A program made the translations under genes and the position numbers. This document shows positions 10,912 through 55,102 of a DNA stretch of 64,000 nucleotides, piece by piece. The stretch's first letter is position 1; each line of letters opens with the position of its first letter. Under the pieces are notes generated by a model. It made no database searches. It was not told the DNA's origin and worked only from the letters and a program-made list of their open reading frames with translations. Source of the stretch: Verrucomicrobiia bacterium (GTDB taxonomy: Bacteria > Verrucomicrobiota > Verrucomicrobiia > Palsa-1439); NCBI GenBank assembly GCA_022072455.1, contig JAJVHY010000004.1, positions 310,001 to 374,000 on the forward strand, in the 5' to 3' direction.

Positions 10912-12903
10912 CTAAAACGGTGAAGCGGAGATAGCCGTGGTAATCAAGTTCGCGGCCACGCCGATCAACGCAACGAGGCCCGCCCCGGTGCCATAGCCGG
11001 CGGCCACGACCGGCATCACTTCGAGGACGCGTTTCTGGCCGTATTTCTTTTGGAAGTAATATTTCCCGATGAGCGCGCCGACAACCAATGGCACAAACGC
11101 ATGCGGCATGCTCCCGATGCCTTGGACGAAACCATAAACAGCCATCACCGGTAAACTGAAGGCCGACAGCAGCGCGAACGCAATAATGCAGAACGAAAAC
11201 GATCCGGCAATCACGCCGGGATGAAGAGCCTGATAAAACAACGGTTGCGCCCCGCCGGTATTCAGGGTCGCCGAGTAGAGCAGGACCGTATTCTTGGCTT
11301 GCAGGTCCCACATTTTTTGCGCGTACGGGTAAAGTTCCGACGGAATCGTTCCCGATTTCCAGATGAACCCCCAGAACACGAAGCTCAAAAGAAAACTCAA
11401 CGGCACGACCAAACAGTCGGCTTTTACGTACGACCAGAAATTCGTGCCGGTCAGCTCATTCGTGCGGAAATCCTGCGCGCGCCCACCGTAGTTTTCCACC
11501 GGGATCGGCGCCAACCAAATCTCGACTCCCTTGAAACCCGAGAGGATATACGCTGCTTCCCGGATGAAAGGAATTTCGACGTGTTGACCGACAATGCCGA
11601 TCAGCCGGGCATTAATGTACGAAATCAGCGGGGTATACAGGAATGTAAAAAACAAGAGGAAGATCACCGGGAAACCCGGCACCAACGCATGGCAAACCCC
11701 CACGACGAGTAGCGACGCCACGATGTAGATGCTCAGGGCGAGCCACGGCGAGAAATCACCACGTCCGGGCGGGGTTTCCCAAACGTTGGCGCGGCGTGCT
11801 TGCTCGGCGCGATTCTGCCGCAACTCACGCGTCTTGCGCAGCATGTCGCGACCAGTCTGGTAAATCGAGATCGCGGCGATCGCACCGGTAATCCCGAGGG
11901 TGAAACTCATCCAGAAATCGATGGAATTGTTGAACGTGGTGGCGACGGTGTCCATGCCGGGCTGCCAGCGCGTCAGGACGCCCAGTTGATGCAGCAGCGG
12001 ATTCATCGCCAACGTCAGCAGAATTGCACTACCCGTCCCGACGACCGCCCAGAACGGCACCACCATGCCGACGATGAGCAACCCCAGATCAATGACGACG
12101 CCGACTGGCGTGGCCGGCAGGAATCCTTCAGTCAACGTCGTCGCGTCGTACCACGGCAGCGGGATGACTTGAACCGGTTTCGCCAGCACAGCGCCGGTCA
12201 CCAACGGGATCCCGATCTGCAAAATGGCGAAGAAGAAACCGATCATTGCGCCCAGTGAAAACATTTTCCATTTCCAGGTGGTCTTCCGCTCGCCGGATTC
12301 CGCGAGGGCCATCGAGCCTTGCGCACTGATGCCGGCAAAAGGGAAGGGAAGACGTTCGATGTCGGAGGTCAGACGAAACAGGAAATAACCGAGCGTGTAA
12401 CTTTGAATGCGGCCAATGACCATCATAAACAATATCAACAACACCGGCACCAGCCACGCATGATCCCACAGACTGCGGCTCCGGATGGCCAGACTGCCGG
12501 CAGCCGGGGCAAACCACGCCGGAAATTTACCGAGCAAACCAAGATCGCGGACGGCGTCGCTTTGGACGAAGTACTGGCGCCAGATCAAAGCGGCAAACGG
12601 TCCCCCGCCGGCCATCGCTCCGGCCACCGCAAGGAGGATCACCAGTTCCTGTTTGCTCAACGTCCGCATGGCGCGCCGGCTGACTTCGGAGAAGATGATC
12701 AACGTCACCCAAGCCGCCGCGATACCGCCGCCGGTCATCAGGCTCAAGTAAATCGCGCCCGGCATCATCAACAAACCGCAGAACAAGGCACCGGCGACCG
12801 TGATCCACGTGAAGCCGTTCTGAAACTCCGTCGGCGTTTCCAGAATGGACCGGTAAGCCTCCAACTCTTTGTCGGCGGCGACGCGGGAGCGATCCTTAGC
12901 CAT
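10912..12903 (-). CDS. OPT-like (DUF6784/DUF6785-type) multi-spanning transporter
   Basis: A 663-residue integral membrane protein with about 14 hydrophobic segments and resemblance to the oligopeptide-transporter (OPT) superfamily. A family-like segment reads RLPFPFAGISAQGSMALAE, and Gly-rich helices such as GGGIAAAWVTLIIFSEVSRR follow the N-terminal cytoplasmic tail. OPT proteins are cation-coupled importers of peptides and metal chelates. For the PVC-type relatives the substrate is unknown; the location among glycosidases suggests a glycan fragment or glycopeptide (inference). The start is ATG 12903, giving an 8-bp overlap with the upstream FtsX-like gene stop. Longer readings to 12951 lie within that gene. 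It pairs with the second OPT-like gene at 18016-20622. Confidence 0.75.
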   Translation of the reverse strand: MAKDRSRVAADKELEAYRSILETPTEFQNGFTWITVAGALFCGLLMMPGAIYLSLMTGGGIAAAWVTLIIFSEVSRRAMRTLSKQELVILLAVAGAMAGGGPFAALIWRQYFVQSDAVRDLGLLGKFPAWFAPAAGSLAIRSRSLWDHAWLVPVLLILFMMVIGRIQSYTLGYFLFRLTSDIERLPFPFAGISAQGSMALAESGERKTTWKWKMFSLGAMIGFFFAILQIGIPLVTGAVLAKPVQVIPLPWYDATTLTEGFLPATPVGVVIDLGLLIVGMVVPFWAVVGTGSAILLTLAMNPLLHQLGVLTRWQPGMDTVATTFNNSIDFWMSFTLGITGAIAAISIYQTGRDMLRKTRELRQNRAEQARRANVWETPPGRGDFSPWLALSIYIVASLLVVGVCHALVPGFPVIFLLFFTFLYTPLISYINARLIGIVGQHVEIPFIREAAYILSGFKGVEIWLAPIPVENYGGRAQDFRTNELTGTNFWSYVKADCLVVPLSFLLSFVFWGFIWKSGTIPSELYPYAQKMWDLQAKNTVLLYSATLNTGGAQPLFYQALHPGVIAGSFSFCIIAFALLSAFSLPVMAVYGFVQGIGSMPHAFVPLVVGALIGKYYFQKKYGQKRVLEVMPVVAAGYGTGAGLVALIGVAANLITTAISASPF

Positions 12904-15900
12904 GGGCAACCTCCTGCAACAATTGTTTGGCCTCGGCGAACATCTCGCCACGATCGGCTTCCGTTGTGGCGCGCCAGTTGAGGAATTGTTTGCGCAAGGC
13001 CGACAGGAACGGTTTGACCGTGCGTTGCCACGACGCGGTGTGGCCGCTCTGTCGCACGAGCGTAATGCGGGCGATGAACTCGCCCGTCTCGGGATCCGTC
13101 GGCAAGGCGATTACCAGCCGTTGCGAAACGCCGAGATCATAGGGCTTGAGCCAAACCGTGGTGGCCAGCGCCGGGATGAGTTCCGCGGCGGCCTTCAATT
13201 GCACTTCGGGCGGCGCACAGTAGAACGGCCCCGAGCTGCCGGCGCCGTTGGCTTCGAGCCAACGCCGGAAATAGCTGATCACCGCCACCCGGTCATGCGC
13301 CGTGAAGGTGAAGGGCAGATTGAATTCCATCGTGTCGTGCTTGGCTTCCGGCACGTCCCAACTGACGACACCCGAAGGCGACGCCAACCGGGCGGCGTCG
13401 CGCGCCGGGATGAGCGTCGACAGCAACACCGCCGCGCAGATGGCCCACGAGGCGTAGACCGTTTCGATTGAACTGTAGTCCATGTTCATCCCTCCGGTCA
13501 GATGGATCGCGGACAGGACGCGCCCGGTCGCCTGACTGAGCACGTACCCGAGCATCGCGCCCACCACCGAGTAGACGCAGGCCTCGGCCATAAACATGAA
13601 AAATACATGGTTTGGCGCAATGCCGACCGCATTGTAGACGTAGATTTCATCTTTGCGTTCGTACACTGAGCCGCGCATCGTGTTGAACACAGTCAGCGCC
13701 GCGATGAGGATCGGCACGAGCAACTGCAGCAACCCGGCGACGGTCGTTTCCCGGCGCCGCGAGCCGTAGTACCCCACGCCGTCGACGGCGTAGTAGGCGG
13801 GTTGGCCCGTCCGCTCAAGATAATCGAGGACGACGCGGCGCTGTTCCTTGTAATCCACCGCGCCGTGCCGCGGGGCATCCGGCGCGACTTGATACGCCAC
13901 CTTCGGGAACAGGATCCGACATTCCACGGTCACGGCTTGCTCCCCCGACTTGAGCTGCGGCATCTTGTTCACCAGAATCACTTGCGAACCATTCAATCGG
14001 TTAATCGTTTCCGGGACACCCTGCGTGCCGAGTGTCTGAATGCTGTTGATGTCGTAGGGTAGGATGGACTGACCGTCGAGGCCGAGACACTTCGTCAATC
14101 CCACCGAGTCGATGATACCGAGCACTTCGTACGCTTCGCCGCGGATGTCGACGAAGATGTTGGTGGTGTTGACGTCATCCCGTGTAATGCCAAGGTCCTG
14201 CGCCATCGTGTCTGGCAAGATGACAGAGTTGCGCACTTGGCGCCCCACCCGGCTCGCCGCCAACCGTTCGGCCCGCGACTGCGGCGGTCGCGGGAACCAG
14301 CCGCGGTTCGTCAGGAGGAACTGATCGAGTTGGGAAAACTGCGGTTCACTCCAGTCCAACCGCACCGCGGAATTGACCTTGGCGCGCTTGGCAGTCGGAG
14401 TGCCGTTGACGGTGAATTCGCGGTCGACGATCACCTCGACATTCTGCAGTTGGGCGGAATTATTCAACTCCGGCACCAGCCAATCGGTGGTCGCGATCGG
14501 ATATTGTTCGCCATAGATTTGTCGGATATTCTGCACTTGGGCAGCGGCGATCGTTTTGAAGTTCGGGTTCCGCAGCAGGATGCCGTTCCACGCCGTCCGG
14601 GCGGTCGGGTATTCGACGTTGACGAGGTCGCTGGATACCGACGTGAAGCAGATCATGACGAAGGTGATCAGAATCAGCGTCAAGCACGTCAGCCCGGTTC
14701 GTACTTTGCGCCGCCGCATATTGTTCAGACCGAGCAGGAAGGAGGCCCCCACGACACCACCTCGGTTGATGTCGGCGCCTTCCACACGCCCTTCCTTCTG
14801 CCGTAGCTCTTTGATGTTTTGCCGGAACTTGCCCCCCACCATCAGTGTGACCAGCAGCGTCAGGAGCATGATCACAAACCCCAGCAAAATCATCATCGAC
14901 GAGCGCACCATCTGAAACGCCGGGTGGAAGATGCGCAGCAGCGTGAACATCACGAGAAAGATGATCGCGATGGCCAGCAGTTGTTTCCGAATGTCGGCGT
15001 AACCAAAGATCAACTTTTCGGCAAACAACACAAACGGGACCAGCAACCCGAGATACCACAAAATCCCGATGACCGCCTGGCTGATGCGGCTACGAATAAC
15101 CGGGTGGTTGTTGATGCCGTAAGCGAGACTCGTCCCGGCCGCATTCACCGCGGCGACTAGGTCGAACTGCGCCAGTTTCTCCCGGGCCACACCGAGCCAT
15201 TCCTTGGCGCGCGCTTGGAACGCCAGCATCTGTTCATCCGCCATACCATACCGCTGTTGCAAATCCAAGCGCTTCGCCGCCGTGCGCACCATCGAGCCGG
15301 CCGCGTCCAAGTGCGGGAGTGCCAGATTCGGAGTGTCATTGGCAAGGTAGCCGGCCCCAAAAATATCCGCCTCTTCCGCAGTGACCGGCACCGCGGGGTT
15401 CGCGTTCAGCATGAACGCCCGGTACGTCTGAATCTCCGGGTTCTCGGCTGAGCCATCGAGCAGGCCGAGGTAGATCGTCTGGTCGGGTTCGAGAAACGCT
15501 GTCAGTCCACCGAGGAACAGCCGCGGGGGTGGCGTCAGGCCGGCTTGGCTCAGGTAATCGACACGGACAAACGGGCGCATCGTCCGCGGGTTGATCCGGT
15601 TGTACAATGCGACCGGCGCACACCGGAACAACGCGATGTTCATCGGCTTTGGCGCTTGGCCGGTCGTGGCGACCAGATCGGCGCCGGGAACATTCTCATT
15701 GCGGAACAATGACTGACTGGCCGCACCCGCGTCCTTGATATACAGGAGATGACCGGCCTCGTCGAAGCGCGCGGCGTCGCCACTCAGCCGGCCATAGACA
15801 TGAAAATCAAAACACACCGGTCGCGCATACCGGCCGTAGGGATTAACCGGCAGGATGGGATAGAGCCGTACGCCCCGGCTTTGATTGTCGGTCAAGGTGC

Positions 15901-18019
15901 GGTTTCCCGGCTGGACGACGCGCACAAACGTGTGGCGCCCCATCGGATGGCTGGCCACCACGGCGGCCACGCCCACATTCCCAGCCACCGCAAACACGCT
16001 CCGTTGCCGGTCGGACGGGATCGTCTTGAAAGTCATCCGGCCAAACGCCAGTTCCAGCAACGTCCGCCCGAGCACCGGGACTTGTTGTGCCACCGCCTCC
16101 ATCCTGAGGTCGTCCGCCTTGTCTTCCGGCGTGCCGACTTTCGGCGGAAAGAATCCGTAGTTGCTGATCGTGAAAGCGAGTCGCCCACAGCGAAACCAAA
16201 CTTCTGATTCCAATTCCGTGAACGACGGCGAAATTCGGTTGGGTTGCTCTGGGCTCCCGGCGGCATCCCGCGCACCCCAGCTAATCGTCTTGAAGGCGGC
16301 GTTGCGCTCGGCGCGCGGGATCTTTTCGAGAACCATGTTCGCCAAATCGGTGATCTGCGGCTCCACGACCGTGCCGGCCCCCGGCGTGCCGATGAGGATT
16401 GCCAAATCCTTAAGCTGCCGGCTGCCGCCGGAATATAATTCCAGGTTCACTGTCAACGTTCGCGCGTACGGCGCAAACCGATCGCGAACCCCCAGCAAGT
16501 CCGTCAGCTCTTGGATACGCTGCCGGTGATACTCCGCGAGCCGCTGGAAATGTTCGCGGGCCAGCCGCGCATAATCCCACTCCGCAAACTCCGGCCGGCG
16601 CGCCAACTCCGCGATGGGCAACGCCAACAAATTCGCCGACCGGTTGTCGAGCGTCTGCGCCTGCAAGTAGGCGCGCAAGAGCGGGTGACTGTTGGCCTCA
16701 TCCTTGCGCGCAGCGTCGCTGGCCTGCTGGGGATCGAAGCCATCCCGGAACACCGGGCTGCCGGCCCGCAAATACGCGAGCCGCGCTGCCAGCGCCGCTT
16801 CCTTGTGCTGCAAATTGATCTCGCCGGCAACCGTCAGGAACTCCTTCTTGAACCATTCATGGAAGTCCCCGTCCTGGGGCGACCACGACTTCAGCTCATC
16901 GAGAGCCGGCGCCGTGCGCGCCGTGTATTCCAACCAACGCTTCTCATCCGCCAACCGTGCTTCAAGTGGCCGGTAATCCGAACGTTGCTGCGAAAATGTT
17001 TCGAGCGCCTGCATGAGTTGGCAAGCGCCGCTCAGCGCTTGGGCGTGACCGGCAGTCGCGATAAACACAACATCGCGCTGTAGTTGCCCCCGATACCGCG
17101 CCAGTGCGTGGGCATAGTCCAGCATGACCGCCAGCGAAATGCTTTGTTCCCCGCCCGGCGCCTGATCCGGCACGAGCGAGTTGCTGTCGTAAAAACTCGT
17201 CACCACCAACGCCTCGGCCTTTGGTTGTTCGCCGTGCAGCACGCCGAGGACATTGCGCACCGCCTTGGTCTGCCACGTCACCCGGCACCGAATCGTGACG
17301 GCCGTCCCGGCGTATTTCTCGATCGGGCCGCGCACGAGGAACCGCGGGTAGGTCGTCTCGTCGTTGGTGACCAGTGCTTCCCACGGGCTGGCTGCATCCG
17401 GGTCAGGCTGCAGCGACTTCGCGAGACCGTCCTCGCGCACGAGCAATGCCGGGACGCCGACCGCGGCAAAGTTCCGCCAGCCTTCGGCGGCGTCGAGGAG
17501 CGTCACCCCGATGCTTTGTCGTGGATCGTGGCCGGTCAGAAACTTGAGTTCCGTGCCCTCGGTGACAACGAGATTACCGGAGACAACGCAACTGACCGGT
17601 ATGAGCCCGGACGGCGTAAAGGGAAAAAGCTGCACATCCGGTAACGGTCGGCCACTGGAATCGCTGATCTCGCAAACCTCTGTGACCGGCACGACCACCG
17701 GGAATTCCTGCGTCTGCACCTCCAGGCCGGCCTTGCGAAATTCCTCCACGATGTACTGCTCGGTCCGGTAAAACCCGGGGCTGCCGCTGAGACGGCTGCC
17801 GAAGGACGCGATTTCGTGAACGCGCGCCGCGTAGTCCTTGCCGTGCAAGGCTGCGAGCAACGGCGCTTCAGAATAGTTTTGCTGGAACGGCGCCTGGTGC
17901 GTCCGCTCGGGCGGTTCGGCAAAAGTGATAAACCAGTACAGCGTCGCGAGACCGAGCACCGCGAACAACGCAGCGACGATCCATTGGGCACTGGCGGGGA
18001 GGGATTGCCGGTCGCTCAT
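12896..18019 (-). CDS. FtsX-like permease with N-terminal degenerate M28 peptidase-like domain
   Basis: A 1707-residue membrane protein. A TM helix lies at about 12-33, followed by an extracytoplasmic region whose residues 60-345 follow the M28 zinc aminopeptidase layout, with a PA-like insert around 140-240. The M28 metal positions are lost: the HxD motif reads SFYDS (Phe276), the GAxDnaSG loop reads GGEQSIS (Asp to Gln292), and the EE pair reads GH (324-325). This looks like a non-catalytic binding domain. Two TMs near 985-1030 and one near 1045-1070 precede an FtsX/MacB-type permease: GLNNMRRRKVRTGLTCLTLI near 1100, a periplasmic domain, then three TMs at about 1430-1545 with AALTVFNTMRGSVYERKDEI, the usual FtsX coupling region. 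A cytoplasmic C-terminal domain follows. No ABC ATPase is encoded nearby. ATGA overlap with the upstream gene and 8-bp overlap with the downstream gene imply a coupled three-gene unit. Confidence 0.82.
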   Translation of the reverse strand: MSDRQSLPASAQWIVAALFAVLGLATLYWFITFAEPPERTHQAPFQQNYSEAPLLAALHGKDYAARVHEIASFGSRLSGSPGFYRTEQYIVEEFRKAGLEVQTQEFPVVVPVTEVCEISDSSGRPLPDVQLFPFTPSGLIPVSCVVSGNLVVTEGTELKFLTGHDPRQSIGVTLLDAAEGWRNFAAVGVPALLVREDGLAKSLQPDPDAASPWEALVTNDETTYPRFLVRGPIEKYAGTAVTIRCRVTWQTKAVRNVLGVLHGEQPKAEALVVTSFYDSNSLVPDQAPGGEQSISLAVMLDYAHALARYRGQLQRDVVFIATAGHAQALSGACQLMQALETFSQQRSDYRPLEARLADEKRWLEYTARTAPALDELKSWSPQDGDFHEWFKKEFLTVAGEINLQHKEAALAARLAYLRAGSPVFRDGFDPQQASDAARKDEANSHPLLRAYLQAQTLDNRSANLLALPIAELARRPEFAEWDYARLAREHFQRLAEYHRQRIQELTDLLGVRDRFAPYARTLTVNLELYSGGSRQLKDLAILIGTPGAGTVVEPQITDLANMVLEKIPRAERNAAFKTISWGARDAAGSPEQPNRISPSFTELESEVWFRCGRLAFTISNYGFFPPKVGTPEDKADDLRMEAVAQQVPVLGRTLLELAFGRMTFKTIPSDRQRSVFAVAGNVGVAAVVASHPMGRHTFVRVVQPGNRTLTDNQSRGVRLYPILPVNPYGRYARPVCFDFHVYGRLSGDAARFDEAGHLLYIKDAGAASQSLFRNENVPGADLVATTGQAPKPMNIALFRCAPVALYNRINPRTMRPFVRVDYLSQAGLTPPPRLFLGGLTAFLEPDQTIYLGLLDGSAENPEIQTYRAFMLNANPAVPVTAEEADIFGAGYLANDTPNLALPHLDAAGSMVRTAAKRLDLQQRYGMADEQMLAFQARAKEWLGVAREKLAQFDLVAAVNAAGTSLAYGINNHPVIRSRISQAVIGILWYLGLLVPFVLFAEKLIFGYADIRKQLLAIAIIFLVMFTLLRIFHPAFQMVRSSMMILLGFVIMLLTLLVTLMVGGKFRQNIKELRQKEGRVEGADINRGGVVGASFLLGLNNMRRRKVRTGLTCLTLILITFVMICFTSVSSDLVNVEYPTARTAWNGILLRNPNFKTIAAAQVQNIRQIYGEQYPIATTDWLVPELNNSAQLQNVEVIVDREFTVNGTPTAKRAKVNSAVRLDWSEPQFSQLDQFLLTNRGWFPRPPQSRAERLAASRVGRQVRNSVILPDTMAQDLGITRDDVNTTNIFVDIRGEAYEVLGIIDSVGLTKCLGLDGQSILPYDINSIQTLGTQGVPETINRLNGSQVILVNKMPQLKSGEQAVTVECRILFPKVAYQVAPDAPRHGAVDYKEQRRVVLDYLERTGQPAYYAVDGVGYYGSRRRETTVAGLLQLLVPILIAALTVFNTMRGSVYERKDEIYVYNAVGIAPNHVFFMFMAEACVYSVVGAMLGYVLSQATGRVLSAIHLTGGMNMDYSSIETVYASWAICAAVLLSTLIPARDAARLASPSGVVSWDVPEAKHDTMEFNLPFTFTAHDRVAVISYFRRWLEANGAGSSGPFYCAPPEVQLKAAAELIPALATTVWLKPYDLGVSQRLVIALPTDPETGEFIARITLVRQSGHTASWQRTVKPFLSALRKQFLNWRATTEADRGEMFAEAKQLLQEVAHG

Positions 18020-20622
18020 GGCATCCCCGCATAAACATCCATGACGCCGTGGAACCGGAGGTAGATCCCCACGGCGTCAAAGATCACAATTGACGCGATG
18101 CACGCGAGGAACATGCCGACACAGAACGGCACCAGCCCGCGGCGAATACTTTGCGCGCCGCCCAGCCGCAGCAGCACGACGCGCAGTAACCACGCCAGAA
18201 AGAGGACAAACCACGCACCGCGCATGAAGTGGCTCGATGCCAGCACGTAGCCGATCGGGTGCAACGGGAACCACATGAAATTCGCCCGCAGCGTCGCGAG
18301 CACCAGAGTGATGAGGATGCCGAGGCCGAGGCCCTTGGCGTTTGGATTTTGCAGGAAGTTCAGCGCTTGTGCTTCCGGCGGGACCGCGAGCGTCCCGCCG
18401 GCAAAAGCGCGGTCGGCGTTTTGCGCGCCGGCGCGAAACTCCCCGAAGTACCAATTCTGTTCGTAGGGCCACATCTGTTTGAAACTGCTCGCGCCAAACC
18501 CATACGCCCAGCCCAACATGACAAACCCACCGATGAGCAGTCCGCCCAGCAACCCGAGGGTCAGCCCCGCGCCGACATCTTGGGGCCGGACCCGGAAGTG
18601 CCGGCCGAGTTCCATCATCTCAACTTGGGCCGGGGCGATCAGCAGGAAAACGGAAGTACACATGAAGCCTGCCGCGATCGCGGCGACCAGCATGCCGGTT
18701 GATTGGAACAGTGCAAAGCCGCCGACTGCGGCGACGAATTGCATGCCGTAATACGGGGTCAGATAGCCGAAGGGCGCGCCGCATTCCGCGCGAATCTTGC
18801 TCGCCGCAAACCCACAGACAAGCATGTAACCGAAAAACAGCAGGCTCGCGCCGGCCCCCATCTGGGTCCAAAGGCCCCACGCCACGAAAATACCAAGCGA
18901 GGCGACCACCATCAACAGCGCGGTCCGGTACGAGACGAGTTCCGTGGATTCGTCCGGGGTCGCTTTGGCCCGGCCGAACGCAATGCGTATGACCTTCGCC
19001 AAGTGGTGCCGGCCGACAAACAGCGCCAGCCCAGCGTAGGCAATGAATCCGCCCATTGCCTGTTGGAATTCCCACGGGTAACCGGGAAACCGGGTCCAGT
19101 TGAACGCCGTCCCGCCCAGTCGCCACAACTGGAAGATCAGAAAGCTGGCCCAGAGTGAAAAAAGGATGTCCGTCTCAATCAACAGCGCGATTGCCAGCAA
19201 ACAGAACGGCAACGTGCTGATGTTGACGATTTCGAGGTAGGACTTCAGCACCGGGCTGGTCACAAACGAGCTGAGTTGTGTGTCCCAGATTGGGGCCGGC
19301 ACGCTCGGATTATAGAAATTGATGCCTTTCAACAAGACCAACGGCAGCGTCACCGCGAAGCCCACCCACATGATTTTGTTACGGAAAATCGCCAGCCGCC
19401 CTTCGCTCGTCGTAAACAGATACTTCGGCAGGATCGTCAGCGGATAGGTGAAGCGCTCGTTCTCGACCCATTGTTTGCGCATCAACACATTCAACCCAAG
19501 AAACCCGAGGAACAGCCCGCCGATCAACAGTCCCCACGCCAGCAGTGGCCGAGTCCATTGCGCGATCGGAATATAACCGGTCAGCAGATATTTCAGCCCC
19601 GCCAAGCTAAACATGTTTGTCGGTCGCACGATCGTGAAATTCCGCTCGTGCGCATCGAGCGTGGCGAGGTTCTGTTCCCGCACGACCTTCCGCCCGGCAA
19701 ACGCGCCCGCGACCGCCTCGACGTTGAAGAACTGCCAGTCGAGCGTCGCCACCTGCCCGGCGCCGGCCAACTCGACCTTCAGCGTCAACTTCTCGCGCAA
19801 CGTGGCCGGGATCGTTACCGGGTTGACCCCCACCCGGCGCATCCCGCCCGGCAAAGCAAACGTCGGCTGCGTTTCTTCCGTATTGACGAGCAACGGGGTG
19901 GCCGGGTTGTCGTCCGCCTGCATCAGCACACTGTACGCCGACCCCTTGGTCAACCCGCTGGCCTTGACGAGCACCGCAAAGAGAAAAGTCTCCCCCGGTA
20001 TCAGCACTTCGCGACCGCGCGCATCGTACCGGTGAATCGTGACCGCCAGTGTCGCGCGTTCGGCGGCGTTGTCGGTATTGCGCAGAACCGGCACTTTCCA
20101 CCGCCGGTTCTTCCAATCCAGTTCAGTCCAACCAAGTTGTTGGGGAGCCGACGCCGTGAAGTCAGCCAGTTCATTCTCGAACCGGCCATTCGCGATCAAG
20201 TTGTCGCCGTGCGGCCAGAGCATGGGCGGCAAGCTTTCGTACGATTTGAAATCCTGATGATGCGGGATGGAGGTCACCAAGCCGAAGATCCGGTGCCAGA
20301 GGCCCTGCGTCATCAGCGGCGCGGACAGGATGAGTGCCGAGTAAATCACCACCAGTTCGGCGGTCACGAGGCGGAATGACTTGCGGACTTTGTAGAGCAA
20401 GCCGCCAATGATCAGGAGCGCCCAGATCACGCCGACGGCACTGTTCGGCGGCGAATTCTCCGCCAGTGGTCCGCCCGCGCAATATAACTCCTCATACTCG
20501 ATCCAAATCCCCATCACGAACATCGCCACAATCGCAATGACGACCGACCGCAGTGTTACCCCCCGTTGGCCTCCACCGGTATCCGTTGGATCCAGTTGAT
20601 TGGTGGAAGGTGTTTCGGACAT
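18016..20622 (-). CDS. OPT-like (DUF6785-type) transporter with extracytoplasmic jelly-roll-like insert
   Basis: An 868-residue membrane protein with about 14 hydrophobic helices. After three N-terminal TMs, residues 125-335 form a long hydrophilic insert. It opens with DNLIANGRFENE (140-151), very like the NGdFE start of CBM4/9/16-type carbohydrate-binding jelly rolls, and runs through beta-rich segments to LDWQFFNVEAVAG. The remaining helices resemble OPT-like DUF6785/DUF6784 proteins (KIRAECGAPFGYLTPYYGMQ, then NFMWFPLHPIGYVLASSH). Its stop overlaps the start of the FtsX-like gene by ATGA. A carbohydrate-sensing or uptake function is inferred from the insert and the neighbouring fucosidases. 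The 91-bp gap before it (20623-20713) has no clear terminator or promoter. Confidence 0.78.
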   Translation of the reverse strand: MSETPSTNQLDPTDTGGGQRGVTLRSVVIAIVAMFVMGIWIEYEELYCAGGPLAENSPPNSAVGVIWALLIIGGLLYKVRKSFRLVTAELVVIYSALILSAPLMTQGLWHRIFGLVTSIPHHQDFKSYESLPPMLWPHGDNLIANGRFENELADFTASAPQQLGWTELDWKNRRWKVPVLRNTDNAAERATLAVTIHRYDARGREVLIPGETFLFAVLVKASGLTKGSAYSVLMQADDNPATPLLVNTEETQPTFALPGGMRRVGVNPVTIPATLREKLTLKVELAGAGQVATLDWQFFNVEAVAGAFAGRKVVREQNLATLDAHERNFTIVRPTNMFSLAGLKYLLTGYIPIAQWTRPLLAWGLLIGGLFLGFLGLNVLMRKQWVENERFTYPLTILPKYLFTTSEGRLAIFRNKIMWVGFAVTLPLVLLKGINFYNPSVPAPIWDTQLSSFVTSPVLKSYLEIVNISTLPFCLLAIALLIETDILFSLWASFLIFQLWRLGGTAFNWTRFPGYPWEFQQAMGGFIAYAGLALFVGRHHLAKVIRIAFGRAKATPDESTELVSYRTALLMVVASLGIFVAWGLWTQMGAGASLLFFGYMLVCGFAASKIRAECGAPFGYLTPYYGMQFVAAVGGFALFQSTGMLVAAIAAGFMCTSVFLLIAPAQVEMMELGRHFRVRPQDVGAGLTLGLLGGLLIGGFVMLGWAYGFGASSFKQMWPYEQNWYFGEFRAGAQNADRAFAGGTLAVPPEAQALNFLQNPNAKGLGLGILITLVLATLRANFMWFPLHPIGYVLASSHFMRGAWFVLFLAWLLRVVLLRLGGAQSIRRGLVPFCVGMFLACIASIVIFDAVGIYLRFHGVMDVYAGMP

Positions 20623-20713: not shown

Positions 20714-21694
20714 TTACCGGAGTGCAATTCCAGATTTCTCCAGGCGGTTGAGATTGCGGCGCAAGCGCAGGAGCGCGTCCCGGTAACGCTTGGGAATCAA
20801 TCCGTGCCGGTCAGGGCCGACGTCAAGCAGCAGATTGGCGCCGCGACTGCGAGCGACGAGATACATCCCGAGCAACTCGGCGTCGCTGCGGGGTTGATCA
20901 CTCTCCACGTAGAACCATTCCTTGCCAATCGGCTCACAGACTTCGCCGGGTAGATAGAACTTTTTGCCTTCGATTTCGCGCCAGGGCTGGTGTTTCGTGT
21001 GACTGTTGGGCAGAAACCGTTCGATGGCGATCAAGTCGGTCGGCCAAGCGTAGGCGACGTTGAACTGCGAACCATCGCCAATGCCGTGGTTCATCATGAT
21101 CACCGCGTCCGGCTGCCAGCGGGCGATTTGCGCGTAGAGCTTGTTCCGGTAATCGCGCGGCAGAACACCGGGAATATCGATCCACACTTCGCCGATGACG
21201 CCGTATTGCGTCAGCAGTTCTTCCAGTTGTCGCCACTGAAACTCCCGGTATTCCTCAGTGGTGTACGCCTCACCCCAGTTGGTGTAGCTGGGTGTGAGCG
21301 ATCCAAACCGGTTGTGATTATCCCACGAGCAATAGTAGAACCCCGGCATGACACCGCGTTTGGCGCAGGCGGTCACGAACGCCGCGACGACGTCGGTTTT
21401 GTTGCCACTGGTGCCGACATGGTAGTCGTTGCATCGGGTCGGCCAGAGACAATGACCGGCGACGTGTTTGGTGGTGAGCACGGCGTATTTCATTCCAGCA
21501 TCGCGCGCGACACTGATCCATTGATCCACGTCGAGTTTGTCGGGCGCGTACAACGTCGATGGCTTGGCCCCTTTCGATAGTTCGTAGCCATCGAACGTGC
21601 TAATCCCGAAATGAATGAACATTCCGTACCCCAAGGCTTCCCATGCTTTGAGTTGCCGGAGCGACAAACGTTGGTGTCCTTTATCAGTTGCCAT
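20714..21694 (-). CDS. GH29 alpha-L-fucosidase (short, intracellular)
   Basis: A 326-residue GH29 catalytic TIM barrel without a signal peptide or C-terminal beta domain. Motifs: GYGMFIHFGIST near the N terminus, GMKYAVLTTKHVAGHCLW, and GEVWIDIPG with Asp173 at the position of the GH29 nucleophile. The end GANLLLDVGPDRHGLIPKR is also typical (LLLNIGP-type). It is shorter than most GH29 enzymes (about 450-600), so it is a stripped-down catalytic domain. The start ATG 21694 has a good Shine-Dalgarno (AGGAG, 6 bases upstream) and overlaps the preceding gene by 11 bp. It probably cleaves fucose from imported oligosaccharides. Confidence 0.87.
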   Translation of the reverse strand: MATDKGHQRLSLRQLKAWEALGYGMFIHFGISTFDGYELSKGAKPSTLYAPDKLDVDQWISVARDAGMKYAVLTTKHVAGHCLWPTRCNDYHVGTSGNKTDVVAAFVTACAKRGVMPGFYYCSWDNHNRFGSLTPSYTNWGEAYTTEEYREFQWRQLEELLTQYGVIGEVWIDIPGVLPRDYRNKLYAQIARWQPDAVIMMNHGIGDGSQFNVAYAWPTDLIAIERFLPNSHTKHQPWREIEGKKFYLPGEVCEPIGKEWFYVESDQPRSDAELLGMYLVARSRGANLLLDVGPDRHGLIPKRYRDALLRLRRNLNRLEKSGIALR

Positions 21695-23279
21695 TGGATG
21701 CTCCTATCGCCAAGGCGGCCACCGCCGGGAGCTTGGACTGCCGTAAGATGGCGGCCACTTCCGCCGGTAGCGCTTGGTCATTGTTGAATGCCTGTCCGAA
21801 AACAGCGAACGCCAGCGGGACGATCCACCGGTCTTCTTCCGCCGCCACCCGTTTCGCCACCGCCGGCCAGACCGACTTGGGTAATCGCTCCAGCCCGATC
21901 GTCAACCGCGCGTGGGCGGCAACCAGCCGTGAACGCTGCACCGCGGAGTCGGCGGGCTTTGCGCCGGCACCCCGAATTTTCAGCGCGGCGAGGGTATACA
22001 AATTCTGCATCCACGAATCCACCACCGGTCCCGCGGCCCCAGCATCACCACAGCGGAGCGCGGCAATCAGAGCGCTCTCCCGTCGTTCATCCGCTTCCGT
22101 GAAACTTTCGTTGAACTCGCCCGGCGCCAAGACGCGGGCCGGGTTCTGCCGGACAATTTCGTGTAGAACGCCCAGCGCCGCGGGATCGCCCAGCCAACCC
22201 AAACCATCCACCGCGGCCAGTTGTACCGCCTGGAACTTCTCGATTGCCGCCTTGGTGGCCGTGGGATTCAGATCCGGATCAACGCCGGATGATTTGTGCT
22301 CCAACGCATCCGCCAATAAATCATCCAGACTCTGTTTGGGCGGGGCGGTGACACCTTTTGTGAACGCCATCCGCAACTGTTCCTTCGCCCCACTGACCCG
22401 ACTCAAACCGAGCAATCGCAAACCCAGTGCGACTTTTTCCAGTCGGCCCGAGTCGATCAACGCTTTGGCCACCACGGCAAAATCCTGATCAGCGACCGGC
22501 GCCGCAGCTTCCAAGAGTTGCTCAACGGCGTTTGTGCCGGTCGTTGCCGCTTGCAGTTGCGCCAACACCGCGGCTTTCCCTGGCCGCGCGCGGGCTGACG
22601 GCGCGAGCCACGTCATGGCCTGCGCCAACACCGCCGGCCATTGACTCCACTCCCAAAACGCCAGCCGGCCGGCCGGCGGATCACCCATGACACTGCCGGC
22701 AAACACCGCCACCCGGCCCTGACCAAACGTCCCGGTCACCAAGAGTGGTTGCTCGTCCGCCGTCAGCACCACGGTCGCTCCGGGCTTGGTTCGAATGTTG
22801 TGCCGCCAGAACACGTGCGGTTGTGCATCCCCTTTGACCGGCGTGAGCCGCGCGCCGGTAGGAATCGCGACGAGATTCGGGTCGGCTGAAAATTCCACGG
22901 GGGCGATCTCTTCCAGTTCCGTGCCGTGGTATTCACCGCCAAACGCATAATAGCCGCCCAGCATCAGCACGGCACCGCCTTGCGCAACATACCATTTCAA
23001 CAACGCCCGCCCTTCCGCACTCAGCGACTGCCCGTTGATGTTGGCCAGAATGACCAGGTCATACCGCGCCATCTCCTCGGCGGTGCTGGGAAACGGGCCG
23101 GAGACACTGTTGGGTGAGTGCCAAACATTGACGCTCCGCACACCACCGAGCGCGGCGAATGCAGAATCACACTGATAGAGCTCGTACCACAGCCCGCGCA
23201 CGGCGAGAACGCGGCGCGGTTCAGCTTGCGATTGGCCACTCAGCCACAATGTGAGCAACACCATCACCAGGGTTCTCAT
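21684..23279 (-). CDS. Secreted protein with GATase1/ThuA-like domain and helical repeats
   Basis: A 531-residue protein with a clear signal peptide (MRTLVMVLLTLWLSGQSQA). Residues 20-230 resemble a class-I glutamine amidotransferase-like Rossmann domain (DLVILANINGQSLSAEGR, then GGAVLMLGGYYAFGGEYHG), a fold often found in secreted proteins of Planctomycetes and Verrucomicrobia with no amidotransferase activity. No catalytic Cys-His-Glu set is obvious. Residues 240-531 are alpha-helical with HEAT-like character (LGVLHEIVRQNP, ESALIAALRCGDAGAAG). It may be a periplasmic binding or scaffold protein. Its start overlaps the upstream gene stop by ATGA, and its stop overlaps the GH29 gene. Confidence 0.6.
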   Translation of the reverse strand: MRTLVMVLLTLWLSGQSQAEPRRVLAVRGLWYELYQCDSAFAALGGVRSVNVWHSPNSVSGPFPSTAEEMARYDLVILANINGQSLSAEGRALLKWYVAQGGAVLMLGGYYAFGGEYHGTELEEIAPVEFSADPNLVAIPTGARLTPVKGDAQPHVFWRHNIRTKPGATVVLTADEQPLLVTGTFGQGRVAVFAGSVMGDPPAGRLAFWEWSQWPAVLAQAMTWLAPSARARPGKAAVLAQLQAATTGTNAVEQLLEAAAPVADQDFAVVAKALIDSGRLEKVALGLRLLGLSRVSGAKEQLRMAFTKGVTAPPKQSLDDLLADALEHKSSGVDPDLNPTATKAAIEKFQAVQLAAVDGLGWLGDPAALGVLHEIVRQNPARVLAPGEFNESFTEADERRESALIAALRCGDAGAAGPVVDSWMQNLYTLAALKIRGAGAKPADSAVQRSRLVAAHARLTIGLERLPKSVWPAVAKRVAAEEDRWIVPLAFAVFGQAFNNDQALPAEVAAILRQSKLPAVAALAIGASNGN

Positions 23280-25534
23280 GGGAGTGCCTCCCGCGAAGTG
23301 TAGTCAATGACGATGGTTTGAAAGAATCGCAATTCCGGCAACCGAACCGTGACGGTACCGTTCGTCGTCTTGTCGCTGAGCCGTTCGTGACGTGATTCTG
23401 GTAACGGACACAGACTCCACGAACCCGTGACCTGCGCATCGGCGGGTAAGTGAACGGTTACCGGCAAGTCGCGGATGAGCGGCGGCGTCTGCAGCGCATG
23501 GTTGCTGTAAAACTTGTAGTCTGCCGGAATATTGAGCAGATGGATGACGATCCGGCGTTGATCCCCGCCCCGATTGAGTTTCCGCACCAGCGGTTGCCAG
23601 CATAAGAACGGCGCCGGATTCATCCCGCCAAACGTCACCACTTGCTCCGGTTGGCTGACCGGCCGCATCCGGTTATCCCAGATAAACTCGGCATACCGGA
23701 GCGCGTGGCGTTGGTGTTGGCCGAGATCGCTTTCGAGCGCGCGGTAGTATGGGTGCGAGCCGGTGGCTAACATGACCGCGGACACATACACGGCGTCCAA
23801 GGCGGTGGCGACCGTAGCCGGTGTCTTTTCCGGCACGGCGTGGCCGGTGTAGAGCGGACCGAGATGGCCGTTGTGCGGCCAGACCAGATCGCGCCAGTGA
23901 ATCAAGGCCTGCGCATAACTTTGCAGCGATGGACTGCGCTCCTGGCGAATGTCCTCGGCCATGACCATCCCCCCACCGCTACACATGATGTCGAGCGCGC
24001 CGACCCGATGATCCGCCTCGATCAATGAGTTATAACCGAATTGGAAGCCGGGCACTTCGCGCTCGACGAGTTCGCGGGTTAACTTTGTCGCCTTCTTCGT
24101 CCATTCGTTGCTGAAATAGGAATCGTACCGGACCCCGTCCCAACCAAACTGCCGGTGGCTCGCCACCAACTGCGCCGCATGATACCGGATCGCCGCCAGG
24201 CTGTTCGTGTCGTCTTGGACCAAGTTCGTATAGTACCAGGCATGGGGCGGGGGAATCTTCTTGGCGTACATGCCCGGCCAGTAATCGAGCACTTCGGTGT
24301 AGAACCCGCCGTTGGCAATCCACTCCGGATGCCGGCGCATGGTCTCGAACCCGACTGCGCCATCCGTGCCCCAGAGATTGGCGTACACCGTCGCGGCCAT
24401 GCCGCACCGGTGCGCAGCGTCAATCAGGTTCTTGGTGCCGCTGATCGAATGCGTGTATTGCGTCTGCCCGCCGAAGAAATCTTCCCGCTGCGGTGTGAAT
24501 CCGCTGAAGTCGCATTCCGCCCAGAAGAAACATTCGAAGCCGGTAAAGCCCTGCGCCCGCCACTGGCGGATCTGCGCCTCCGCGTGGGCCGGATCTTTGA
24601 AGGTCAACCCGCGATTGTCGGCCTGACCGGCCAGGAGCGCGACCTGCCAGAAATTGGTGGCCACCGCAAACACCGCCGACTGTCCCGACTCACGCCCGTC
24701 CGGCAGCCGCGTCTGGGCCCGGATTTCTGCGCCCCAATACATCTCGCGCAGAATCAGCGGGCCGCGCCAACTGTTCGACCCACCCGCCGGCACATCGAGC
24801 GCCGTTGTCGCCAAGACCTGCGCCGCCGCCAAACCGTGCCGGCACTCGACCGTAAGTTCAGCGCGCACCGGCACCGCCCCCAGATTCCGCACCACGACGT
24901 CAACGGTGCCGGTCTGACCGGGTTGGTAGACAACCCGGTCGGTTTGCACCGAAGTCACCACCAGCGGCGACAACAGCTCAATGTACGGTTCTTGTCCCAA
25001 CAACCGTTTTGAGCGGGTGCGCGCCGTGGTCAGCGGCACCAAATCCCCTTCCCCCTCCAGTTGCGTTTCGTCCTCCGGGACGAGACTGTCGTCAATGGTC
25101 GGCGGGACCTGCGTCTGGTTGCGGTGGCGTTGGCTTTTCCGGCTCTGAAAACTCCACGTCACTTTGACCGGCACTTTCCCCGGTTGCGAGACGACAAAAT
25201 CCACAGGAACATCTGTGAAGACATCTGGTTCAGCGAACTGCAACCGTCCCACCGTCCGAGTCTGCGCCCCAGCTTGAATCACAATTTCAACCCCGCTGAT
25301 CGACGCGTCCCCAAACGGCGCCAGCGCCAGCGGCACATGCAACCGGTAGCGGCCGACGGCCAACGCTTCCCGGCTCCTGCCGCGCAGGAGCAGGCCGGAC
25401 TCCTGCTGGAGATCGCCCACAAAGCACTCCGTCGCCGAGGCCGGCGCGGTTTTCGCGACGGCAATCTCAAGTTCCCGCGCCAAAACCACCGACCGGGACA
25501 AGGCCAGCGCGACGAATATCAGGATGATCTTCAC
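23276..25534 (-). CDS. Secreted TIM-barrel glycoside hydrolase-like protein
   Basis: A 752-residue exported protein (signal peptide MKIILIFVALALSRSVVLA). Residues 20-290 are beta-sandwich domains (GTVDVVVRNLGAVPVRAELT). Residues 300-640 look like an alpha-amylase/GH66-like TIM barrel: GFTGFECFFWAECDFSGF, GMAATVYANLWGTDGAV, and FGWDGVRYDSYFSNEW, where DGVRYDS resembles the strand-4 nucleophile segment. MVMAEDIRQERS later supplies a possible acid (Glu). A C-terminal beta domain follows. The exact family is not recognised, so the substrate is unknown; action on extracellular or periplasmic glycan is likely. Only 6 bases separate it from the upstream gene. Confidence 0.62.
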   Translation of the reverse strand: MKIILIFVALALSRSVVLARELEIAVAKTAPASATECFVGDLQQESGLLLRGRSREALAVGRYRLHVPLALAPFGDASISGVEIVIQAGAQTRTVGRLQFAEPDVFTDVPVDFVVSQPGKVPVKVTWSFQSRKSQRHRNQTQVPPTIDDSLVPEDETQLEGEGDLVPLTTARTRSKRLLGQEPYIELLSPLVVTSVQTDRVVYQPGQTGTVDVVVRNLGAVPVRAELTVECRHGLAAAQVLATTALDVPAGGSNSWRGPLILREMYWGAEIRAQTRLPDGRESGQSAVFAVATNFWQVALLAGQADNRGLTFKDPAHAEAQIRQWRAQGFTGFECFFWAECDFSGFTPQREDFFGGQTQYTHSISGTKNLIDAAHRCGMAATVYANLWGTDGAVGFETMRRHPEWIANGGFYTEVLDYWPGMYAKKIPPPHAWYYTNLVQDDTNSLAAIRYHAAQLVASHRQFGWDGVRYDSYFSNEWTKKATKLTRELVEREVPGFQFGYNSLIEADHRVGALDIMCSGGGMVMAEDIRQERSPSLQSYAQALIHWRDLVWPHNGHLGPLYTGHAVPEKTPATVATALDAVYVSAVMLATGSHPYYRALESDLGQHQRHALRYAEFIWDNRMRPVSQPEQVVTFGGMNPAPFLCWQPLVRKLNRGGDQRRIVIHLLNIPADYKFYSNHALQTPPLIRDLPVTVHLPADAQVTGSWSLCPLPESRHERLSDKTTNGTVTVRLPELRFFQTIVIDYTSREALP

Positions 25535-25540
25535 GATTGC

Positions 25541-28500
25541 TTATTTCAGACTTGCCCGGTCCGGCACAGGAGGCAGACCCGGGTAGGTCCATTCGGAGAT
25601 CTCAACCTGATGCCTCCCCTCGGTCACGCCAAAGGCCATGGCAAACTGTGGCGTGGCAGTTCCCTTGTTGATCGTATGGTCGTCTGCAAACCCAGCATAC
25701 CAACGGACCCCGTCCAAGCAATACATGGGCCGGACAATCTTTTCGGGCCAAGTGCAGACCAGTGTCCGAGTCACGCCGTCCACTGTTCCCTTGATGCCGT
25801 GGGCGGTGAAAGTCAAATCGAACGGGCCGACCCCGCGCACGCCCACGTTTCCGACCGTGAGCCGGCAGTACGTGCGGTCCAGCGCAACCAAGCGAATCCC
25901 CGTGGGGCTGATCTGCACCGCCGCCCGTCGCGCTTCGATGGCGATGTTCCCGTCCTGCAGGGTGATGGGGGTGGCGCCAGCCGCCTCAACCAGGTATTCA
26001 GAGACATTTCCCTCGACTGCTTTGCGGACGCCGTTCACAAGGGGTTGATGGTCCTTCAGCGTCGGGGTGTAGTTGATCTTCAACGGCACAACCGCCGCTT
26101 TGACGACGGCTTTTTTCAAGTTCGCCAGCGCAATGGTTTGCTCAATCGGGGCGACGCCTTCGATCACGTGCCCTTGATAGCCGACCTTGCCCGATCCGCC
26201 GACCAGCGCCAGTGTCACCGTGTCTTTTCCAACCCGCACGGTTCCGGCGCAGCCTTCGAAGGCCACGTCCTCGGCGGCGAAGGCAAACGGCGAAGAAGAC
26301 AGGAACACGTAGTCGGTCTGTTCGCTGGTTTTGATCTTCGCCGCTCCCGGTTTCAAAGAAATAACTTCCGGTGGCCTTTCGCCTTCGGCCTGAGGATACG
26401 CAACCCAGAAGTAGTCTTCGCCCGGTCTCTTGCCAAGGCGGAGAATCACGTGTTGCTCGGTAACTCCGACCGGCTTGGCGTTCGTGATCGCCGATCCGTC
26501 GCCGTTTCTCCAGTTACGAGAAACGGATTGGTTGTTGCGGAAGTAGCCGGGGCTCTTGCCCCCACCGTAGGCGTGGATATGCATGTTCTGCTCCACCATG
26601 TCCACCTGAAGCGGTTCTTTCTGGGCGAAAACAACTGCCAGTTTGGTCGGCCATTCCGTATCGACCATGATGCGCGCCCCCTCGAGGCGGACATCCGTCT
26701 TGCGCCCGAGCAGGTCGAGGTTAAACCAACTGGCCAACTGCGTGTCGCCATAAGGGCGCACACTGTCGCGGAAAACGAAATAGTTCGGGCCTTTCGGATT
26801 GGCGCTCTTCAGGAAGAGCACTTGGCGATCCCAATCGAACGGTCCCGGTTTCTGTTCGATCCCGGCAGCCAACGGCCGCGCGTTGCCGGTTCCGACAGGG
26901 GGAATTCCCTGGGCTTGGAGGAACTCACGTTTGCCGCCGGGACTGAAGTACCAGTCCGGGTATCCGACGGAGGACCAAGCGTAATCCACCGTTTTTCCGA
27001 ACGCATGGTCCAAGATGTTGGCGTCGGTCCAGGAGTGGGGCATCCGGTTGGCAGGACTCCCGAACCGCAGGAGATTGCACATATCGAACTCCTTGCTGCC
27101 ACTGCCGCCGTACTGGAAGGGCTGATAGGGCACCAGCATCGCCCCTTTGCTCATCAGAACGAAGTGGCCTTGGTCCTCGGGCCAGTGACTCCAATTGTAG
27201 CCGCTGCGCAGAAAAAGGTACGTCTCCTCCGGGCCTTGGTGCGCCCGGAAAATAATGCCGACTCCCGGATAAATTTCGCTTTTCAGAGCCGGTTCCTTCG
27301 GCTGGATCCAAGGCCGTTCCAGAGCCACATTGATGTCATTGTCGCCGGTTCCGTTTGCCAGCCAAGCCCAGCGCAGGTTGGCGGCGAGTTCCGGATATTT
27401 TTCCGCCAGCACGCCGGACGCCTCCATGAAATGTCCACTGCGGGAGGGTGGACTGTTGGCCATGCCCGGTACCATCCGCACCTGCCAGCGGCTGTCATAC
27501 GGCGTCAGCAGATTCATGTAGTATGACCAGTCCTGGCGATTATACTCCTGAAGCCGGTCGGTTCCCGGTGCCGCCGCCGCCTGCAACCCCATGATGCCGT
27601 TGTTGAGGCGTGCATAACCGTGCATGTGATACGCGCCGCCATACTCGAACCAGCCCCCCCCGGGCGCCATATTGACGCCGGTCTTGTACTGTAAATACTC
27701 GTCCGCATGCATCAGCCACTTCGCGTACATCGGATGGTCTGGCAGCAGGGCGATGTAGGTGCTCATGCCGGATGACACCGCCACCCCCATATTGGGCGGA
27801 CCGGTATGCGAGCCATTGGCGTAACTGATGACATCGCCCTCCATATAGAGGTACGCCGCCAAGGCCAGTTTGGACCGGATATACCGGCGATCTTCGTCCC
27901 TCAAGCCGGGCCAGGCTAGGATATCATCGGCCAAGCCGGCCTTGATATAAGCGCCCATCCCCATGGCATGGTGGCCGACGGTGGGCGTACTGACCATGTA
28001 CTGGACCTGCCCATCCAATTGGCGACGGACATCTTTCATGCGGGTTGCCGCCACCTGATCGTCGCCTGTGGCCAGATACCCTTTTCGCAACTCAGCTGCG
28101 AGCGGGGACTGCCCGGCCGTCTTCCTCAGCGCTTCGATCTGGTCCGGCTTCAGGAAGACGCGCGGATACGTTGGTTTCCCATCGGGCCACTCAAGAATAT
28201 AATCCTTATAGCGATCCAGACTGATCACACCGTACAGCAACCGCGCCAGGGCCAGCGGCCCGCGCACTTTGTTGTCACCGAGACGGGCGACTGCCGGGTG
28301 GGCAAGTAACAGTCCCCAAATACGTCTGCCATAGGTCGCCGGCAAATAGTTCTCATGTTCGAGTACAGAGAACGGTGCCGTTTCGGAAGTGACCTCACGC
28401 AACCACGAGGCATGCCGGAGCGTCATGGGCAGATGCAGACTGATCTGCTTGCTGTCGGGGGTGTGAACATCAATGCCGATCATCCGCCGCCAGTCTCCCT

Positions 28501-29458: not shown

Positions 29459-29537
29459 GTCTCTGCTCCATTCTGGTTCTGGCACTATAACTCGTGCGGG
29501 GATTGCAATGCCTTAACGATCTGGCCAAACACTCGGA

Positions 29538-31316
29538 CTATCTCGCCAGCCAGGCCATGACCGGTTTTGGGAACACGGGTTTGATCTTGCCGCGCTGTCG
29601 CTGGGGAATCTCAAAGCAGGCGAAGATGCCCCATCCGCGACCACCGGCTGTATCGAAGGCAATGACGATTTCGTGATCGCCCTTGGACAACCGCAGATCA
29701 ACCTTGGATCTGCCGGGCACGGCAGGATTGATGAGACTCGGGACGGTCAGCGCCACGCGGCCGTCCACGAACACCTTGGCACCGCCGTCGTGGCCCAAGT
29801 GTAAACGCCAGACGCCGGAACCCGGCGTCCGAAAGACATTGCCGATATAAACAAGCCCATCCTTGTCCCCGAACAAATCGTGAACACTGATGAAGCCTTC
29901 GGGTTGACTCGCGCGAACGGACTTCCACCCGAGCTTGTCGCTGAGCTGGACGCCGCCGGCCCGGATCACGTCTCCCTTTTTGGGCAACAGCCGCGAGACC
30001 TTCCATGCGTCCACCTGCGGAGAGACCCACTTGCCGGAGAGATCCACCAGCGGAACATCCGGCGAGACAGGCCCGGCATTGAACAGTTGGATGGGCGGCG
30101 TCCGAAAGGTCAACTCCACCACACCGACGTGATTGGTTTTGTCGGGACATTTCTCCGGCAGCCCTTGGATCACCAGCCGGTCAGCCGTTTGCGTAAACGA
30201 CAATTTCTTGTCGCTAGGATAGAGACGGGCGCCCCGCAGTTTCCAGGTGAGCGCGCCGATGGCCAGTTCGCGGCCCGGCCAGCGTGAGCACCAGAAGTAA
30301 TACTGCCGGCCCTTCCGGGTCCAGTTGCCCATGCCGGAGGTCAGGGCTCCGGCGCGGTCCACTGGGCCGTAGACAACCCCTCCGTAAGTCTTCAGCCACT
30401 GGCCGACTGCTGTCAAACGCTCGACCGCTTCGCGGGGAACGGTACCATCCGGGTGCGGCCCGATGTTCAACAGGAGGTTGCCGCCGTTGGCGGTGCAAGT
30501 GCGCAGCATGTCGAGCACTTTGCGGGAGGAAAGCCAGTCCTCGGGAGGCGTTGGCTGCCAGCCCCAGGATCCATTAAAGGTCATGCAGGCTTCCCACGCG
30601 CGATCACCGGCGGCCGGCTTGATGTGTTCTTCCGGTGTCCCAAAATCCTCCGGGATTTGTGCGCGGTCATTGATCAGGATGTGCGGCTGCAACTCACGCA
30701 CCATGGCATTCAGCCGGTAACTGTCCCACGCCTGCGGCGAAGTGAGCGGCCAAGACACGTCGTACCAGAGGATGTCGATCTTGCCGTAGTGGCTCATCAG
30801 CTCGCGGACGCAACCCCGCGTGAAATTGACGAACCGTTGCCGCGCGGCTTCTTCCTTGGCGCACCGAATCCCATCCGGGTGATGCCAATCCATCAGCGAA
30901 TAGTACAAACCGACCTTGAGTCCAACTTCGCGCGCAGCCTCGACATATTCGCGCACCAGATCGCGCCGGGGACCGCGCTGCACGGCGTTGTAGTCGGTCA
31001 TTTTCGTGTCCCAGAGGCAAAAGCCCTCGTGGTGCTTCGTGGTCATGACCATGTATTTCATGCCGGCGCGTTTGGCCAAGGCGGCCCATTCGCGCATGCA
31101 GCGCGGCTTCGGCTTCCAGGTGGCGGCGAGTTTCTCGTACTCCGGCACGGGGATGCGCTCCAAGTTCATGGCCCATTCATTGCGCCCCAACTGCGAGTAC
31201 AACCCCCAATGAATGAACATGCCGAAGCGCGCCTCTTTCCACCAGCGCCGGCGGCGGGCGCCGGTCCGTTCGACGCGGTCCAGATACGCTTGCTCAACCG
31301 GAGTTGGATTGGCCAT
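29538..31316 (-). CDS. GH29 alpha-L-fucosidase with C-terminal beta-sandwich
   Basis: A 592-residue GH29 enzyme: [20 protein letters not shown] near residue 25, [34 protein letters not shown], and [11 protein letters not shown] with Asp186 as the nucleophile. [16 protein letters not shown] closes the barrel. A galactose-binding/PA14-like beta domain follows (residues 440-592: [20 protein letters not shown]). No signal peptide is seen. The start is uncertain: ATG 31316 has GGGA 8 bases upstream, while ATGs at 31322 and 31352 are possible. All overlap the end of the GH95 gene, so the two are translationally coupled. It probably removes fucose from glycan side chains, complementing the inverting GH95 enzyme. 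Confidence 0.88.
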
Positions 31317-33654: not shown

Positions 33655-33666
33655 CGAGATTGATTC

Positions 33667-55100: not shown

Positions 55101-55102
55101 GC

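Follow-up and report, generated by a model that had tools for sequence, protein, structure and literature searches.

As judged from their sequences, three overlapping genes of a Verrucomicrobiia bacterium, here called A, B and C, are parts of a larger conserved set that also includes a second FtsX permease (P), one or two LolD/MacB-like ATPases (N) and a small PqqD-domain protein (D). The system is apparently undescribed and widespread. The three genes lie in a 64,000-nucleotide stretch, hereafter the window, which carries neither P nor N nor D. On balance we favour a reading in which a Type VII ABC engine moves periplasmic domains that serve two OPT-fold proteins, the window copy sharing the engine of a second set encoded on contig C9 of the same genome.

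Table 1. Positions of the genes, domains and gene sets discussed (window coordinates unless a contig is named)
Feature	Position	Strand	Basis
A: predicted OPT-fold membrane protein, DUF6785 + DUF6784, 868 aa	18016..20622	-	Pfam; AlphaFold model
A, residues about 140-305: putative CBM-like jelly-roll ectodomain	19708..20205	-	fold match
B: pseudo-M28 ectodomain + FtsX-type permease, 1707 aa	12896..18019	-	Pfam; model of residues 1-1100
B, residues 45-663: M28-like fold with inserts, zinc-site motifs lost	16031..17887	-	model fold match and homologue motifs
B, residues 1090-1550: FtsX permease region	13370..14752	-	identity to 11 ATPase-linked homologues
B, residues 1560-1707: C-terminal tail, presumed cytoplasmic (inferred from topology)	12899..13342	-	identity comparison
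C: putative OPT-like membrane protein, 663 aa	10912..12903	-	conserved family; Pfam OPT in 8/25 family members
Same-strand run upstream of A: two GH29, two GH95-type, a GH66-like and other genes; outside the core system	20714..36180	-	Pfam
C9 set, order A-B-C-P-N-D-N	contig C9 (L012)		read from locus
C1 set, order A-P-N-B-C-N-D-D	contig C1 near 235-248 kb (L015)		read from locus

The overlapping genes and their products

The three genes are intact minus-strand frames with the coordinates given in the first-pass annotation, which had described an overlapping trio of two OPT-like proteins and an FtsX-type protein with a pseudo-peptidase ectodomain. The overlaps, of 4 bp (ATGA) between A and B and 8 bp (ATGGCTAA) between B and C, were confirmed on the sequence, and a chance arrangement can be excluded because the gene set is conserved across phyla. 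A longer frame for C, starting at the GTG at position 12951, is unlikely, since the ATG at 12903 is preceded by AGGAGG and fits the start of most homologues. The run of genes on the same strand as the trio also contains a GH35/42-like gene (Pfam). As had been claimed, Pfam scans of 25 window ORFs, a set that does not include the ORF at 59283-62783, revealed no SusC/D, TonB-dependent receptor or known sugar transporter. Directly downstream of C (8719-10797) lies a gene for a 692-residue protein that has no Pfam match even at an E value of 10. Elsewhere in the window, four adjacent plus-strand ORFs (52524-59296) match the SASA carbohydrate-esterase family, and an autotransporter-like ORF of 2213 residues (43194-49835) contains passenger-associated-transport repeats.

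The only Pfam families matched by protein A are DUF6785 (4.8e-72) and DUF6784 (1.1e-19); the OPT family is not matched. Its AlphaFold model (pLDDT 91.7, pTM 0.92) can be superposed on barley Yellow Stripe 1 across 547 residues (3.9 A rmsd, Z 24.2, 9% identity), and on the strength of this model we assign an OPT fold to A. The ectodomain of A gave no match in a Pfam sequence search. Its modelled fold matches CBM16, 61, 22 and 4 with Z values of about 14-15 (CBM16 TMt 0.77), with meprin, GH101 and Cry jelly-rolls scoring alike. The DUF6785 match is unbroken in shorter A proteins (L155, L015), and its best stretch in window A begins at residue 350, consistent with an insert. The window C protein has no significant Pfam match, and 8 of 25 members of its family, window C not among them, match Pfam OPT (best 2.2e-8), which suggests that C is OPT-like. 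The two OPT-like proteins of the earlier description are thus supported by a model fold for A and by family matches for C. Sequence searches of the PDB with the A and C alignments yielded nothing significant. Homology between A and C was considered and rejected (16% probability in profile comparison), and the A and C profiles did not detect each other.

Protein B matches Pfam FtsX (3.1e-13) and M28 (4e-5), with a weak match to Nicastrin (0.0069). Residues 1-1100 were modelled (pLDDT 88.3), and the ectodomain model aligns with M28 aminopeptidases over 273 residues at 2.4 A (Z 29.0 for BSAP and 28.9 for the Vibrio/Aeromonas aminopeptidase); the transferrin receptor and GCPII are also among its fold matches. 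At what we take to be the positions of the M28 zinc and catalytic motifs, the EE pair is missing from all 40 B homologues inspected, window B included, and the first zinc histidine (HxD) from 38 of the 40. The pseudo-peptidase assignment is therefore upheld, and to judge from these motifs the M28-like domain of B is inactive as a peptidase.

The wider gene set and its distribution

P matches Pfam FtsX (1e-14) and is closest to MacB/FtsX/LolE, and the best match of N is LolD (231.3 bits, 9.5e-69). PqqD was found above the curated cut-off in all nine small D proteins scanned. Presence across the phylum was determined by separate B and C searches, apart from the locus-built profiles. C is present in 31 of 194 genomes of the phylum and strong B matches (E <=1e-38) occur in the identical 31, the next genome scoring 3.4e-11 through the FtsX part alone. 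Co-occurrence elsewhere had been named beforehand as the test that could refute the trio as a unit, and this result did not refute it.

The arrangement was read in 43 phylum stretches (the window, L012, L015 and L046-L085), 42 of which contain both B and C; L080, with B alone, falls outside the 42, as do the stripped or partial stretches L177-L181. A was found in 39 of these 42, P in 39, at least one N in 40, and A, P and N together in 36. P and N are both absent from the window and from L053, and L083 is without P. The six family profiles (A, B, C, P, N, D) derive from loci that were later counted, so the scores are partly circular, and the adjacency counts are conditional on the choice of stretches, by B within the phylum and by C for the named loci described below. 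The shared 31 genomes and the 36 complete stretches bear out the view that the three families belong to a conserved set for which no paper was found. The full-text search, which covered open-licence literature, retrieved no paper for DUF6785 or DUF6784, none that treats PqqD, the OPT family and FtsX jointly, and none with any three of M28, FtsX, OPT and Planctomycetes together. In L054, L057 and L065, three pseudopilin-like genes with N-terminal GFTLxE motifs lie ahead of the system.

Searching species genomes for the C family yielded at least 542 confirmed stretches, the best 80 of which were kept as named loci. The record titles of these 80 include Lentisphaerae, Verrucomicrobia, Planctomycetota, Armatimonadetes, Latescibacterota and many Desulfobacterota. 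B accompanies C in 62 of the best 80, and A, P and N are present as well in 43, many of the contigs being short. Desulfobacterota have the order P-N-B-A-C, among them the cultivated Desulfatibacillum alkenivorans DSM 16219 and Desulforhopalus singaporensis DSM 12130, and D is close by in many. The other 18 of the 80 have C but no B, and contig ends do not explain several of these cases, such as L128 and L148 from Latescibacterota. C stands alone in five of the 80, including the same two loci, each in a 22 kb stretch. The Latescibacterota records L128, L140 and L148 have C without A, B, P or N, and their neighbours differ from those of the other loci but are common to these records.

The engine of the window copy and the nature of the substrate

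The absence of an ATPase, which the first-pass annotation had found odd for an FtsX-type protein, holds for the window and for 12 kb past its low-coordinate end, where no homologue of N or D was detected and the sole match to P was the FtsX domain of B itself. It does not hold for the system: ABC ATPases and a second permease are present at nearly all loci, and a trio without an ATPase is exceptional. An ABC ATPase linked elsewhere, which the same annotation had proposed to look for, was found: a B search of the genome revealed two further copies, on contigs C9 and C1, both with P and ATPases, and the genome has exactly three A and three C genes in total. No orphan engine was found near the window; other P matches in the genome (C6, C17, C3 and C1 near 497 kb) were weaker and distant. 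Genes that on reading the sequence resemble TonB, ExbB and ExbD directly follow the C1 set (L015:17865-19609). In the C9 set, two genes adjoin A on its upstream side (L012:17486-19980), one of them a DUF4159 gene and the other assigned to no named family.

The FtsX transmembrane part of window B is as similar to those of 11 close, ATPase-linked homologues (0.812), in which P and N lie downstream of C, as these are to each other (0.810), and the corresponding identities of the tail are 0.676 and 0.625; the FtsX coupling segment is slightly less conserved in window B (0.76 versus 0.784 in the others). Because the FtsX and cytoplasmic parts of window B are as conserved as those of its ATPase-linked homologues, the window trio is most likely energised in trans, by P, N and D of the C9 set. 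A recent duplication of the C9 set is not supported, since the C tree groups the C9 copy with L087 (100/99 support) and not with the window. On contig C12 of genome G114, an A-B-C set that lacks an engine comes immediately before one that has P and N, which by analogy suggests a precedent for engine sharing; on contig C116 of the same genome, B and C are the only members of the set in the 19 kb read. The window trio could also be a decaying remnant that has lost its engine and its function, given that it lacks P, N and D whereas its close homologues have P and N. We regard this as very unlikely, since the three overlapping frames are intact, pN/pS against the C9 copies is 0.39 for A, 0.44 for B and 0.22 for C (rough values, with synonymous sites near saturation), and the FtsX helices and tail of B are not relaxed.

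We propose that the trio is the substrate-facing half of an inner-membrane complex with a Type VII ABC engine (MacB/LolCDE/FtsEX-like) at its core. Where the set is complete, B would pair with P, and the LolD-like ATPases would drive both. ATP binding and hydrolysis would act through the FtsX helices on the large periplasmic ectodomain of B, the inactive M28 fold of which may serve as a binding and lever domain, and the movement of this ectodomain would pass substrate to the OPT-fold proteins A and C, or receive it from them, with D acting on the cytoplasmic side. By borrowing P, N and D from the C9 set, the window copy would serve the fucosidase operon as an A-B-C module that prefers a substrate of its own. 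OPT proteins are known as ion-driven transporters and Type VII engines are not known to move substrates across the inner membrane; direct coupling between the two would therefore be unprecedented. Also against the proposal are three phylum loci with B and C that lack P, two of them N as well, the named loci with C but no B, the slightly lower conservation of the coupling segment in window B, and the failure of the A and C profiles to detect each other. It is a speculative and somewhat unlikely extension of this proposal that the system represents a transporter class not seen before, with a Type VII engine powering an OPT-fold pair and exchangeable A-B-C modules sharing one engine, and that it forms, in these Verrucomicrobiota-type bacteria, part of the missing SusCD-free route for oligosaccharides.

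The location of the trio amid GH29 and GH95 genes raises the question of whether it is a fucoside transporter specific to the fucosidase operon. GH29 genes are also found near the system in G114:C12, G192:C127 and L106, and in L090 an L-fucose isomerase gene (L090:374-2152) precedes A by about 140 bases in the same orientation; a protein of L091 guessed to be a rhamnose isomerase proved to be something else. Within 10 kb of 47 C genes from 30 genomes, 3 GH29 genes were observed, the window itself being counted, versus about 1.1 expected (Poisson P 0.098; positions entered by hand, and G185, in which C is a contig-edge fragment, left out). The enrichment is not significant across these genomes, so GH29 proximity was rejected as an indication of fucose specificity. 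The 74 flanking proteins in 17 stretches from close relatives also have mixed functions, and we consider a dedicated fucoside transporter improbable. Candidate conserved non-core neighbours among independent close relatives proved to be mainly pairs of overlapping stretches of one contig, plus two pairs of common regulators. In 27 of the L118-L165 loci, P is present with a flank of over 500 bases; by their record titles these loci are Desulfobacterota, apart from a few entitled just Pseudomonadota or Proteobacteria. The short flank contains a gene of GT28-like, DUF2334 or related type in 16 of the 27, and in L146 such genes lie further out (L168). The Desulfopila run in L167 consists of DUF2334, GT28-like, histidine phosphatase, GT4 and GT28-like genes, the GT4 protein being closest to the exopolysaccharide protein EpsE, below the cut-off. 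No matches to these Desulfobacterota-type neighbours were found in the 42 phylum stretches searched. The CBM-like ectodomain of A and the glycosyltransferase neighbours in Desulfobacterota are suggestive of a glycan, and a glycan-type substrate is a plausible and reasonable guess; of the roles suggested earlier, glycan transport is to this extent favoured but not established and sensing is hypothetical, and a link to fucose is not borne out by the GH29 counts.

Peptides or modified peptides, rather than glycans, would be the substrate in another reading. Peptides are imported by known OPT proteins and exported by some Type VII ABC engines, their ends are bound by the M28 fold and their leaders are recognised by PqqD domains, so that the PqqD matches in D, the M28 fold of B, the OPT fold of A and the OPT profile matches in the C family would all be accommodated. 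However, the zinc motifs of B are lost, A bears a CBM-like domain in the window lineage, and glycosyltransferase genes adjoin the Desulfobacterota loci; we find a peptide substrate doubtful. Lol-like trafficking of lipoproteins or (glyco)lipids, in which A and C would be scaffolds and not transporters, would agree with the closeness of N to LolD and the resemblance of P to LolC/E and FtsX, but N (231 versus 307.75 bits) and P (45 versus 362.45) miss the curated Lol cut-offs and known Lol systems have no place for two OPT-fold proteins, making this explanation quite unlikely. The Type VII engine serving an OPT-fold pair, plausibly with a glycan-type substrate, remains our preferred reading.

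Comparison with known systems

We place the system with the Type VII ABC kind, and do not class the trio as a LolCDE or MacB system, an active peptidase or a SusCD locus. The scores obtained against the curated LolC/E and LolD models fall below the cut-offs for B (23.5 versus 473 bits) as well as for P and N. Those against MacB (P 49.8, N 213 and B 32.5 bits; cut-off 966) do likewise, and matches to the FtsX equivalog model are far below its cut-off. A shares its fold with the OPT/YSL transporter Yellow Stripe 1, and 8 of 25 members of the C family match the OPT profile, but A differs from these transporters in its low sequence identity, in the lack of a Pfam OPT match, in its CBM-like insert and in its linkage to an ABC engine. 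The B ectodomain resembles the M28 aminopeptidases in fold, but it lacks their zinc motifs and is fused to an ABC permease. Nicastrin and the transferrin receptor are inactive M28 relatives; B shares the fold with them, and differs in its permease fusion. As in SusCD polysaccharide utilisation loci, glycoside hydrolase genes form a run of which the trio is part, but no SusC/D was present in the 25 ORFs scanned and all parts of the system are of inner-membrane type.

The system would be a candidate for SusCD-free oligosaccharide handling in this phylum, in which the relevant passage of PMC8857213 calls for work on non-SusCD transport. It would also place DUF6785 and DUF6784, Pfam families of unknown function, in a functional setting, and the engine-less copy suggests an unusual design of interchangeable substrate modules with one ATPase in common. 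If a Type VII engine does power the OPT pair, a secondary-transporter fold would become ATP-driven.

In passages on Type VII systems, a review and a structure paper (PMC5985334 and PMC12646458) present these as engines working in the periplasm, their function set by partner proteins, and no OPT-type partner is mentioned there. Our system would join the small group of characterised Type VII ABC systems as one whose membrane partners have a transporter fold. It shares FtsX-type permeases and, in its full loci, separate LolD-like ATPases with MacAB-TolC, LolCDE, FtsEX-EnvC, YbbAP-TesA and BceAB-BceS, and is distinguished from all of these by two OPT-like partners, a pseudo-peptidase ectodomain fused to one of the permeases and a PqqD-domain protein.
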